Source: Kiritimatiellia bacterium (GTDB lineage: Bacteria; Verrucomicrobiota; Kiritimatiellia; RFP12; UBA1067). Taken from it: a DNA stretch of 64,000 bases. Below the pieces are notes generated by a model that saw only the letters and a list, made by a program, of their open reading frames with translations, was not told the DNA's origin and made no database searches. A program made the translations under genes and the position numbers. Position 1 is the first letter of the stretch. Every line of letters begins with the position of its first letter. The stretch is from contig JAFSMR010000022.1 of NCBI GenBank assembly GCA_017447805.1, forward strand, positions 62,001-126,000, in the 5' to 3' direction. Shown here in pieces: positions 4,180-18,456 of the stretch.

Positions 4180-5223
4180 TCAGCCGACCTCCAAAGAAGG
4201 CGCTACATCGATTTTCATCGCATCAGCGCCGGAAATATTTCGCCGCCAATATGCGAGAGCTGCAATCATAGCGCCATTATCGCCGCAATATTTCGGTTTT
4301 GCGAGCAAGAGGGGGATTTTTTTGCAAGATGCCATATCGCCGAGAACTTCGCGAAGGCGAGAATTAAGGGAGACTCCTCCGCCGACTACAAGAGCTTTAT
4401 AATTGCGCCTCTTCAACGCCTCGAGAGTCCTATCTTCAAGCGCGCCGATTACGGCTTCTTGGTAGCTAGCAACGATACGCGGGGTCTCTGCTTGGGCAAT
4501 CAAACTTTCGGCACCGCCATTTTTTTCGACATATCTCAAAAGCGCGGTCTTGAGACCGGAAAAAGAAACGCAAAGCGAAGCGGAAAGCCCTGCGAGCGCA
4601 CTGACGCCTTCGCGAGGACGGCCTTTTGGGAATGGTATCAAATCATGCCTGCCCCATTCACGCGCAATTTTATCGATTACGGGTCCGCCAGGATACCCCA
4701 AAGCGAGCAATTTCGCCGCTTTATCGAAAGCTTCACCTGCGGCATCGTCGAGAGTTTGGCCAATTGTATGATATTCGCCGTAACGCGGCATATCTACCCA
4801 ATTTGTATGCCCGCCCGAGACCACCAATCCAAGCATAGGTTCGTAATTTCGCGGGTCGAGATCGGTATCGAGGAACGGGGTGTGAAGATGTGCTTCGAGA
4901 TGATTGATGGCAATCAGATCGATTCCTAAAGAGGCGGCAAGGCCCTTCGCGGCATTAAGCCCGACTATAAGCGCGGGTGAAAGCCCAGGACCATACGTTA
5001 CCGCAATTGCATCGAGTTTAACATTCGCCTCTTTTATAGCCGTAGTGACAACCTCGTTGATTTTCTCGATGTGGGCGCGAGAAGCAATTTCAGGAACGAC
5101 CCCGCCATATGGTTTATGAAGAGGAATTTGAGTATAAACTATACTCGATAGAACTTTGCAGCCATCTTGAACAACCGCAGCTGCCGTTTCGTCACAGCTT
5201 GTTTCTATACCAAGAATATTCAT
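4180..5223 (-). CDS. tsaD: tRNA N6-adenosine threonylcarbamoyltransferase
   Basis: 347 aa, the full family length. It transfers threonylcarbamoyl from TC-AMP to A37 of ANN-decoding tRNAs, with TsaB and TsaE (not in this window). The N-terminus MNILGIETSCDETAAAV and the metal-binding INHLEAHLHTPF segment (histidines about 105-110) are diagnostic; the nucleotide-binding VVSGGHTNW and VVGGGVSLNSRLR segments are present. It starts 7 bases after the stop of the upstream secreted protein, within a six-gene operon. Confidence 0.97.
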   Translation of the reverse strand: MNILGIETSCDETAAAVVQDGCKVLSSIVYTQIPLHKPYGGVVPEIASRAHIEKINEVVTTAIKEANVKLDAIAVTYGPGLSPALIVGLNAAKGLAASLGIDLIAINHLEAHLHTPFLDTDLDPRNYEPMLGLVVSGGHTNWVDMPRYGEYHTIGQTLDDAAGEAFDKAAKLLALGYPGGPVIDKIAREWGRHDLIPFPKGRPREGVSALAGLSASLCVSFSGLKTALLRYVEKNGGAESLIAQAETPRIVASYQEAVIGALEDRTLEALKRRNYKALVVGGGVSLNSRLREVLGDMASCKKIPLLLAKPKYCGDNGAMIAALAYWRRNISGADAMKIDVAPSLEVG

Positions 5224-5230
5224 TTTAAAA

Positions 5231-6082
5231 TCACCAGAATTTCCACCAAGGTCTTTCCACCGGCTTCACGCCGCCGGCAGAATCATATACTTCTTGAACT
5301 CTATTTTGCGCAGATGTCTGGGGGTCGTCTACCCTTTCGCGCGATATGAATTCCAGTGCATTTGGCATAGACCAAAATTCACTTCGAACAAACGCATCGG
5401 GAGAGTTGCGATGGAGGACGACTATCTTTCCGCTCGGCAGAATCGAAATCACCGGTTTTGTTATTCTAAGCATCAAGCCGAGGTCGTGGGTTTCCCAGCT
5501 CCTTTCCGAAGCTCCTTCATCCTGCGCGGAAATAAACAAATGTTCTGCGCCGCTCCTCGACCAATGGGAAAGACGAAATTCGCGATTTAGACCGGGTTTA
5601 TTGGCAAACGTCTGAAGAGCCGTGGTGATTTCCATGCCCGGGACGACATCGAAGGCGACATAAGCGCCTTCGTAGCGAACGCCGTCATGCATCAAAACCG
5701 GGCGCGCCAAATATCTTCGTGGATTGGCAATCGAATAGTGATCGCCGAGATACACTTCCAGCTTCTGCCCTTCATTCGGTCCAACCTTGAATTTTGCGAC
5801 AAATGGACGAGAATTCAACTTTACGAGTCGTTCCATGTCGTGAGCCGTAAACACCTCGACGAATAATTGATCTGTGGAATTGGTGTAGCCGACACGAACC
5901 AAAGAAGGCGAAATATTCCTTACATCGATAACGCCTCTAATTCTTTCGCCGATCAAAAAATCGAGCGCATCGAGTTTAAGATTTACGGAAATATCGCTAA
6001 TTGCGGCCTCAAGCTTGATAATCGAGGCAAAAGCAAATATCGCGAGAATCGCAAGAAAAGATTTTTTCATATTCTTCTTCAT
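5231..6082 (-). CDS. Secreted protein of unknown function
   Basis: 283 aa. A Sec signal peptide (MKKNMKKSFLAILAIFAF, cleavage probably after LEAA) precedes a beta-rich soluble region with no family I recognise. The C-terminus ends in aromatic-rich RPWWKFW. The middle alternates short hydrophobic and charged runs, consistent with Ig-like or beta-sandwich folds; the segment FLIGERIRGVIDVRN recalls domains that describe bulk protein properties in Bacteroidetes-type surface proteins. Two in-frame ATGs (6082 and 6070) are possible. It sits between the PhnP-like gene (12 bp) and tsaD (7 bp). Confidence 0.75.
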   Translation of the reverse strand: MKKNMKKSFLAILAIFAFASIIKLEAAISDISVNLKLDALDFLIGERIRGVIDVRNISPSLVRVGYTNSTDQLFVEVFTAHDMERLVKLNSRPFVAKFKVGPNEGQKLEVYLGDHYSIANPRRYLARPVLMHDGVRYEGAYVAFDVVPGMEITTALQTFANKPGLNREFRLSHWSRSGAEHLFISAQDEGASERSWETHDLGLMLRITKPVISILPSGKIVVLHRNSPDAFVRSEFWSMPNALEFISRERVDDPQTSAQNRVQEVYDSAGGVKPVERPWWKFW

Positions 6083-6094
6083 AATAAAGTCGCA

Positions 6095-6943
6095 TTAAGA
6101 TTTGGCATTGGAAAATTCAAGTCCATCAAAGGCAGCTTCTGCACAGGTGCCCTTTAGCTTCTGGGAAAGTTCTTCATGTGTCAAGTCGTGGCACATGTGT
6201 ATAAGATAAGCTTTCTTCGGAGAAATTTTATCGATATATCCAAGCGAACGCGCGAGGCTCAGATGAGTAGGATGTTCGCGCTCGCGAAGACAATTCAAAA
6301 CCAAGATATCGACATTGGATAAAAGTTCTACTACACTGGTCGAAAGTTCGTGGCAATCACTTATATAGCCTAGACGAAAAGGATCTTCTTCCAGTAGGTA
6401 GCCCGCGCAAGGAAAGCCGTGTTCGACCCTAAAAGCGGTAATACGGCAAGAACCTATAGAAAACGGGTCGAGATTCGAACGGAATTCCACTTGCGGACGA
6501 AACAGCCCCTTCTCGCCGCCCTTTATGCCGATATAGGGGAATACTTGATGCATCTGGGCGATTGTTTCCGGCAGAGCATAACATGGAAGCGTTTTGCCGA
6601 CGACCCGGAATCTTCGCCCGTTTGCACCAGGTTCGGCAGGATCGCACGGAATAGTCTCGCCGTTAATCGTATTAAAGCGCCTCACATCATCAAACCCGGC
6701 GATATGATCCATGTGGGCATGAGTAAGCAAGATCGCATCGACTTTGGAAATCTTGTATTCTAGGCACGCTTCCCTCATTTCAGGCGGAGTATCTATAAGG
6801 AAAGCTTCGCCTGAAGACGTAACGACATAAGCGCCGCAGCGTCTGCGTTTATCGCGAGGGTCGGTTGATCGGCAGACGGGGCATCCGCAGCCGATCTGCG
6901 GTACCCCGACGCTTGTCCCCGTGCCTAGAAAACGGAATCGCAT
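6095..6943 (-). CDS. PhnP/RNase Z-like metallo-beta-lactamase-fold phosphodiesterase
   Basis: 282 aa. The N-terminus FRFLGTGTSVGVPQIGCGC, with the cysteine group GCGCPVCRS, and the metal motif LLTHAHMDHIAGFDDVRRF match the PhnP-like group (phosphoribosyl cyclic phosphate phosphodiesterase and relatives). Later metal ligands are in RVEHGFPCAGYLL and YISDCHE, with HMCHDLTHEE near the C-terminus. No phosphonate-use genes are nearby, so the true substrate may be another cyclic or phosphodiester nucleotide. It is 9 bp downstream of the sugar porter in the same operon. Confidence 0.88.
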   Translation of the reverse strand: MRFRFLGTGTSVGVPQIGCGCPVCRSTDPRDKRRRCGAYVVTSSGEAFLIDTPPEMREACLEYKISKVDAILLTHAHMDHIAGFDDVRRFNTINGETIPCDPAEPGANGRRFRVVGKTLPCYALPETIAQMHQVFPYIGIKGGEKGLFRPQVEFRSNLDPFSIGSCRITAFRVEHGFPCAGYLLEEDPFRLGYISDCHELSTSVVELLSNVDILVLNCLREREHPTHLSLARSLGYIDKISPKKAYLIHMCHDLTHEELSQKLKGTCAEAAFDGLEFSNAKS

Positions 6944-16917: not shown

Positions 16918-18456
16918 ATGGTTGATGTATCTAAGATTCGCAAGTTTAATGACGCGTCGGATTACACGCGCCACTTTATCGTTCAAAAAGAAATCGATAA
17001 ATATCTCCCTGGCGGCAGACATTTTATAGACGATGCGAAAATCACTGACTTAATCGCAAAAAACGATTCTAATCCCGCGCCAGACCCCATAAAGGTGCGC
17101 GAGATAATCGCGAAAAGCGAAGATAAGTGTGAAACGCTTCTTCCTGAAGAGACCGCCGAGCTGATGAAGGTAGAGCCCAATAGCGAACTCTTCGAAGAAA
17201 TGCGTGCGGCCGCGGATAGAATCAAGCACAAAGTCTACGATAACAGAATCGTAATGTTTGCCCCGCTCTATATGAGCAATCTCTGCGTCAATGGTTGCAA
17301 ATACTGCGGGTTTAGGGAAGGCAACTGCGAACAAAAACGCCGTGTGTTGACAATGGACGAGCTAAAGGAAGAAATAGATGTCCTCGCCGGCAGAATTGGC
17401 CATAAGCGCCTAATCGCAGTATATGGCGAGCACCCTTCCACATCTACCGAATATATCGCCCAAACCATAGAAACTTGCTACAACCGCAAGGTCGCAGCGC
17501 CCAAGACCGGTGCGCCGGTGGGCATTCGCCGCGTAAATGTAAACGCCGCGCCGTTGCCGGTTGAAGATTTGAAAGTTTTGCGCTCTGTAGGTATTGGAAC
17601 TTTCCAAGTATTCCAAGAAACATACAACCGCAAACTCTACGAATCCATGCACCCTTCGTGGTCGGTCAAGGGAAATTACGATTGGCGCACTACTTGTTTC
17701 CATAGATGCCTCGAAGCAGGAGTTGACGATGTTGGCTTTGGCGTCCTTTATGGACTTTGCGATTGGCGCTATGAGCTGCTCGCGACAATTATGCATGCAC
17801 GCGATCTCGAGCGCTGGTTTAACATTGGTCCGCATACTCTTTCGTTCCCGCGCCTTGAACCTGCGAGCGGAACGAAAGTTCCCGAAGAATCACCTTGGCT
17901 AATCGATGATAAGACTTTCGCGCGAATACTCGTTCTTGCGCGCCTATCTGTTCCCTATACCGGGATTATCGTCACGGCGCGAGAATCACCAGAGAGCCGA
18001 AATAAGGTAATCGACCATGGCATGACCCAGCTCGATTGCTCGAGTAATATCGCGATTAAAGGCTACAGCGATTTTGAGAATGAATCTCATCAAGAAAAAA
18101 CACGCCAGCAATTCATGCTGGGCGATACAAGAAGCATTGATGAAATGGTTAGATATCTCGCATCTCGCGATATCATTACTTCATTCTGCACCGCAGGCTA
18201 TCGTTGCGGAAGAACGGGCGGCTGCATAATGGATGCCCTAAAGACTGGGCGCGAAGGGAAATTCTGCAAGATCAATGCCGTCTTGACTTTCCGCGAATGG
18301 CTTGACGATTTCGCCTCGGATGAAACAAAGGCGATCGGCGATAAGCTAATCGAAAAAGAACTTGCGGCCATTAAAGAATGGCTACCAAAATTCTTCCCTT
18401 CGGTAATGAAACAATATGAAGCGACTTGCAAAGGACAACGGGATCTGTTTTTCTAA
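16918..18456 (+). CDS. hydG-like: HydG-like radical SAM enzyme (variant auxiliary cluster)
   Basis: 512 aa, full HydG/ThiH-family length. The radical SAM cluster motif is C123-x3-C127-x2-C130 (SNLCVNGCKYCGFR), with GHKRLIAVYGEHP downstream. HydG cleaves tyrosine to make CO and cyanide ligands for the [FeFe]-hydrogenase H-cluster. The C-terminal auxiliary-cluster region reads CTAGYRCGRTGGC with a further cysteine at 450. Positions 424 and 450 match two canonical cysteines, while the third (427) is glycine; extra cysteines occur at 430 and 436. This may be a HydG paralogue with altered chemistry. No hydE, hydF or hydrogenase gene is in the window. The TTG at 16900 is in frame but too close to its ribosome site. 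An Mrp-type Fe-S carrier follows by 31 bp. Confidence 0.85.
   Translation: MVDVSKIRKFNDASDYTRHFIVQKEIDKYLPGGRHFIDDAKITDLIAKNDSNPAPDPIKVREIIAKSEDKCETLLPEETAELMKVEPNSELFEEMRAAADRIKHKVYDNRIVMFAPLYMSNLCVNGCKYCGFREGNCEQKRRVLTMDELKEEIDVLAGRIGHKRLIAVYGEHPSTSTEYIAQTIETCYNRKVAAPKTGAPVGIRRVNVNAAPLPVEDLKVLRSVGIGTFQVFQETYNRKLYESMHPSWSVKGNYDWRTTCFHRCLEAGVDDVGFGVLYGLCDWRYELLATIMHARDLERWFNIGPHTLSFPRLEPASGTKVPEESPWLIDDKTFARILVLARLSVPYTGIIVTARESPESRNKVIDHGMTQLDCSSNIAIKGYSDFENESHQEKTRQQFMLGDTRSIDEMVRYLASRDIITSFCTAGYRCGRTGGCIMDALKTGREGKFCKINAVLTFREWLDDFASDETKAIGDKLIEKELAAIKEWLPKFFPSVMKQYEATCKGQRDLFF

Follow-up and report, generated by a model that had tools for sequence, protein, structure and literature searches.

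A clade-wide CX5CX19C variant of the HydG auxiliary-cluster motif in Kiritimatiellae-type bacteria

The window, meaning the whole 64,000-nt stretch of Kiritimatiellia bacterium DNA analysed here, carries an ORF of 512 aa that starts with ATG, has a Shine-Dalgarno-like stretch (ggaagg) upstream, and is followed by an Mrp/Nbp35 carrier gene (Table 1). Against the NCBIfam equivalog profile for HydG (TIGR03955) it scores 415 bits, with a curated cut-off of 312.15. ThiH was considered and rejected as an identity, since the score against its profile (TIGR02351) is 228.5 bits, far below the cut-off of 380, and a C-terminal cluster domain is present. The AlphaFold model, which is without metal, has a pLDDT of 95.4, and its best PDB match is the HydG of Thermoanaerobacter italicus (TiHydG, 4wcx; Z 51.6, 1.5 A over 453 residues). 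Lower-ranked matches are the HydG of Carboxydothermus hydrogenoformans (4rtb, Z 41.0) and the 2-iminoacetate synthase ThiH (7pd1, Z 40.1), which shares the radical-SAM tyrosine-lyase core but, unlike the window protein, has no C-terminal auxiliary-cluster domain. An earlier note on this DNA had described a HydG-like ORF with C424, G427, C430, C436, and C450 and an intact radical-SAM motif; sequence and alignment bear out all of these positions, and C123, C127, and C130 are in place. The published auxiliary motif of HydG, CX2CX22C, is replaced by CX5CX19C. By profile, predicted fold, and phylogeny the ORF is a HydG, non-canonical in this motif, yet HydG by descent.

Table 1. Position of the hydG variant and of residues discussed in the text (window coordinates).
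Feature	Position	Strand	Evidence
hydG variant with CX5CX19C auxiliary motif	16918..18456	+	TIGR03955 415 bits; 4wcx Z 51.6
Radical-SAM motif C123-x3-C127-x2-C130	17284..17307	+	Sequence; invariant in 91-row alignment
His293, counterpart of TiHydG dangler-iron histidine	17794..17796	+	Aligns with H266 of 4wcx chain
Ala354, replaces phenolate-crown Thr (TcThiH T299)	17977..17979	+	Strictly paired with Asp373, 172 HydGs
Asp373, replaces phenolate-crown Ser (TcThiH S318)	18034..18036	+	Strictly paired with Ala/Cys/Asn354, 172 HydGs
Cys424, auxiliary ligand 1, retained	18187..18189	+	128/128 variants, 44/44 canonical
Gly427, replaces canonical auxiliary ligand 2	18196..18198	+	Gly 128/128 variants; Cys 44/44 canonical
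Cys430, proposed relocated ligand 2	18205..18207	+	Cys 127/128 variants, 0/44 canonical; after helix 426-429 (model)
Cys436, conserved but dispensable	18223..18225	+	124/128 variants
Cys450, auxiliary ligand 3, retained	18265..18267	+	128/128 variants, 44/44 canonical

In canonical HydG, the CX2CX22C motif holds a [4Fe-4S] cluster whose open iron is bridged by L-cysteine to a fifth iron; CO and CN- collect on this iron, and the product, Fe(CO)2(CN)Cys, goes to HydE (PMC12752695, PMC11736057). Where canonical HydG reads CTACYRxGRTG...FC, the window ORF has CTAGYRCGRTGGC...FC. Alignment to TiHydG sets SYCTACYRMGRTGDRFM...NFC of that protein against SFCTAGYRCGRTGGCIM...KFC in the window ORF, with a Gly for the second auxiliary cysteine of 4wcx and a new Cys three residues on. 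The window protein resembles the 4wcx and 4rtb enzymes in fold, radical-SAM motif, dangler histidine, first and third auxiliary cysteines, and YR signature; it differs from them in this Gly and new Cys, and in having Ala and Asp for the Thr and Ser of the phenolate pocket (discussed below).

From genome sampling confined to the phylum Verrucomicrobiota, and with TiHydG for comparison, 173 HydG rows were gathered, 172 of them readable at site 427, which is Gly in 128 (called variants here) and Cys in 44 (canonical). Chance and sequencing or assembly error were rejected as causes of the change, Gly427 being common to 128 proteins and C430 to 127 of them. The variants are nearly all from Kiritimatiellae-type genomes; where the records of relatives carry a name, it is Kiritimatiellae, Verrucomicrobia, or Lentisphaerae, and most are ruminant MAGs. 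Among 387 genomes sampled across the phylum the motif is carried by 53, only two of which (G432 and G493) fall outside the class. CX5CX19C is a trait of a large Kiritimatiellae group of gut and sediment bacteria. One MAG (isolate RUI187) has two variant HydGs, L065 and L083, which are 86% and 83% identical to the window protein and may reflect a duplication or a mixed bin.

In an IQ-TREE reconstruction with the two trait columns masked and ThiH as outgroup, all variants lie on one side of a single branch, so that one change is needed. Support is 86 for this branch, which includes the protein L201, and 99 for the clade of variants without L201. A canonical clade is sister to the variants, both are nested inside HydG, and the grouping of variants with 15 canonical rows has an SH-aLRT value of 99. 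Since the variants have a single origin, the co-occurrence of G427 and C430 in 127 of 128 represents strong conservation but one evolutionary event. Of seven fixed differences between variant and canonical proteins, five cluster near the site, in residues 418-466 (p about 0.004-0.006), a hint that the ligand shift went together with a rebuilding of the pocket.

Variant and canonical AlphaFold models were compared by secondary structure. Both have a short helix at the site (residues 426-429 in the variant, 411-414 in the canonical control) with the GRTG loop next. In the variant model, residue 430 comes directly after the helix turn, i+3 from 427, from which we infer that C430 replaces the vacated ligand. 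The earlier note had offered a cluster with shifted ligands as one of two readings, and the pairing of G427 with C430 in one clade nested within canonical HydG supports it at the level of sequence. On this evidence the window protein is probably a working HydG in which ligand 2 has shifted from 427 to 430, changing CX2CX22C to CX5CX19C, and which would still hold the [5Fe-4S] synthon cluster.

A rather unlikely alternative is that the cluster is held by two cysteines and a non-cysteine or solvent ligand, C430 being structural or redox-active, with CO and CN- still made but perhaps released free. Iron ligation by C430 is putative, the HydG C-terminal motif is known to vary among lineages, and the HydG of C. 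acetobutylicum gives off free CO and CN- (PMC9431212), all of which would be compatible with such an arrangement, as would L201, which has Gly427 and no C430. However, C430 is present in all variants but that one and in none of the canonical proteins, as expected of a ligand, and the genome that encodes L201 is one in which no HydF was found.

L201 itself (genome G192, 5092-6504, minus strand) is HydG-like, with Glu at position 430, and is sister to all other variants. HydF was undetected in G192, and HydA is present there. L201 may be an intermediate, or, given the lack of a detectable HydF, a decayed or repurposed copy.

The earlier note had counted two new cysteines as possible ligands; C430 fits, and C436 turned out to be dispensable. 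The latter is replaced by Q, T, K, or A in L200, L210, L177, and L201 and by L in L231 (a later find outside the 128-variant alignment), so C436 was rejected as an essential or general cluster ligand. These five proteins also bear on the proposal that C424, C430, C436, and C450 together fully ligate a cubane without a dangler iron, or that C436 supplies the sulfur of the free L-cysteine. Conservation of C436 in most variants, the window protein included, would agree with either version, but L200, one of the five, is encoded next to hydA in a genome that has HydF. The dangler histidine is conserved as well, and a fifth iron is therefore still expected: the His293 column is H in 127 of 128 variants (the other being a gap) and in all 44 canonical proteins, and its counterpart in the 4wcx chain, H266, is the histidine that binds the dangler iron. 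Overall, four-cysteine ligation or a sulfur donor role for C436 seems quite unlikely.

The earlier note had also remarked that no hydrogenase or hydE/hydF gene is nearby. This holds locally, but not for the genome. The assembly (2.25 Mb, 93% complete) was searched family by family. The window HydG is its single HydG; HydF is encoded on contig C26 (419.8 bits, over the cut-off), and two HydE-family proteins above the cut-off are encoded on contigs C27 and C57. A single [FeFe]-hydrogenase (HydA, contig C6) has intact H-cluster motifs (TSCCPAW, IMPCTAKKYE, and EVMACRGGC), and its gene adjoins genes for NuoF-like and NuoE-like subunits, an arrangement of the HydABC type.

Several of these genes have features of their own. 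The two HydE-cutoff proteins differ from each other (L014 on C27, 328 bits; L015 on C57, 321 bits), and L014 has biotin-synthase-like and thiazole genes as cluster neighbours. Also on C27, the locus L002 (55125-58358) contains a 309-aa ORF in which a ThiG-like N-terminus is followed by a C-terminal portion of ThiH; an intervening stretch may have been deleted or misassembled. The HydF (L219, 7300-8541, minus strand) has Gln in place of the histidine before its CxxC cluster motif (VQCGGC); in relatives the motif reads HCGGC, QCGGC, or LCGAC. The conserved histidines of HydF have been called essential (PMC6212873).

In relatives, variant hydG genes are found among hydrogenase maturation genes. 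Three loci (L203, L206, and L207) have hydF-hydG-hydE operons with a variant hydG, in L207 with hydA nearby, and L186 has the order E-G-F. Variant hydG adjoins hydA in L172 and L200, and hydF is directly downstream of it in L093, L097, and L102, which are of the same genus and carry close relatives of the window HydG. Co-occurrence was assessed in 193 genomes of the class, 54 with variant HydG, 57 with canonical HydG, and 82 with none. HydF is present in 52, 53, and 6 of these, respectively; the difference between variant and HydG-less genomes has a Fisher p of 4e-28, which is nominal because the genomes are related. Of the two variant genomes that form the exceptions, G231 encodes an N-terminal fragment of HydF. 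The search for HydA succeeded in 51 of the 54, with no PF02906 match at 1e-20 in G046, G193, and G231. No second HydG occurs in 53 of the 54; only G198 has a canonical copy also, with the canonical HydG (L214) in a hydE/hydF cluster and the variant (L177) elsewhere. The CTAG pattern is found in genuine HydGs of hydrogenase-bearing relatives, one half of what the earlier note had named as counting against its suspicion of an unusual enzyme.

These distributions speak against the other reading in that note, a HydG paralogue with another product, which would then have no connection with hydrogenase. Near the ORF, the surrounding part of the window has no hyd gene and the Mrp/Nbp35 carrier gene is downstream, as a paralogue might have it. 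However, the genome, which has HydE, HydF, and HydABC, encodes no HydG but this one, the counterparts of the ORF in relatives lie in operons with hydF and hydE, and canonical and variant copies occur together only in G198. The carrier gene does follow the ORF, as noted earlier, but it is no linked partner, because a search of 80 related loci detected no Mrp homologue. That the ORF encodes such a paralogue is hardly likely at all.

A second departure from described HydGs is found at the substrate pocket. In ThiH, T299, S318, and S321 hold the tyrosine phenolate, and they are described as strictly conserved among HydGs (PMC9046217). In the 172 HydGs compared here, Thr at the T299 position is paired with Ser at the S318 position in 19 (TiHydG among them); in the other 153, Asp at the latter is accompanied by Ala, Cys, or Asn at the former, and mixed pairs are absent. 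R306 (R361) is retained almost throughout. Both the variants and their canonical sister clade have the Ala-or-Cys/Asp swap, which therefore predates the cysteine shift. A carboxylate at this position is hard to reconcile with a phenolate substrate; the phenol may be neutral, the Asp may pair with an Arg, or the substrate may be a different one. A more thoroughly re-engineered enzyme, with a relocated-Cys cluster, a C436 able to replace free L-cysteine, and an Asp pocket that alters substrate or protonation while the H-cluster is still made, is very unlikely.

For the preferred reading, a working HydG with a shifted ligand, the following scheme may be proposed. An aromatic amino acid, presumably tyrosine, would be cleaved by the radical-SAM cluster, yielding the CO and CN- that go into the H-cluster of the hydrogenase. 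The second protein ligand of the C-terminal auxiliary cluster would lie three residues further on, at 430 and no longer at 427, a displacement of about one helical turn, and the C430 thiol, on about the same face as residue 427, could take over the vacated iron. The three cysteines of C424-x5-C430-x19-C450 would then hold the [4Fe-4S] part. The fourth iron would stay free to accept the fifth (dangler) iron through a cysteine bridge, and the histidine for the dangler iron is kept. The [5Fe-4S] cluster would form and the usual Fe(CO)2(CN)Cys would be the product. A known enzyme would keep its ordinary function in an unusual anatomy throughout the clade.

A close comparison is with canonical HydGs of related Kiritimatiellae-type families (such as L214, L022, and L216) from the sister clade, which have the same hydE/hydF partners and the Ala-or-Cys/Asp pocket. 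Unlike the variants, they keep CX2CX22C, and have F437 for I, A441 for L, and P421 for T. Another departure from CX2CX22C, with function also inferred, is the C-x4-C-x23-25-C of HydG-like proteins from acetogenic clostridia (PMC9431212), in which the spacing is other than that of the window protein. The C-terminal motif of HydG is described as essential by mutation in work cited in PMC9431212, which also states, citing Duffus 2012, that its sequence varies. No report of a CX5CX19C HydG was found in the literature, where an earlier notice in Duffus et al. (2012) is possible, and no paper joining HydG with Kiritimatiella was found in the literature searched.

The H-cluster is assembled on the auxiliary cluster of HydG, whose three-cysteine motif has been treated as essential. 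Here a whole clade, which apparently goes on making [FeFe]-hydrogenase, appears to have one ligand moved by about a turn. Nature has in effect supplied a ligand-shift mutant with which one can ask what, in the [5Fe-4S] site, is indispensable. The canonical and variant HydGs of G198 (L214 and L177) are a natural pair for comparison, and the Ala/Asp phenol pocket likewise offers a natural way to test the phenolate mechanism that has been put forward for tyrosine lyases. The CX5CX19C enzymes are frequent in Kiritimatiellae of the rumen and gut; motif-based annotation of HydG will overlook them, and hydrogen producers with them.
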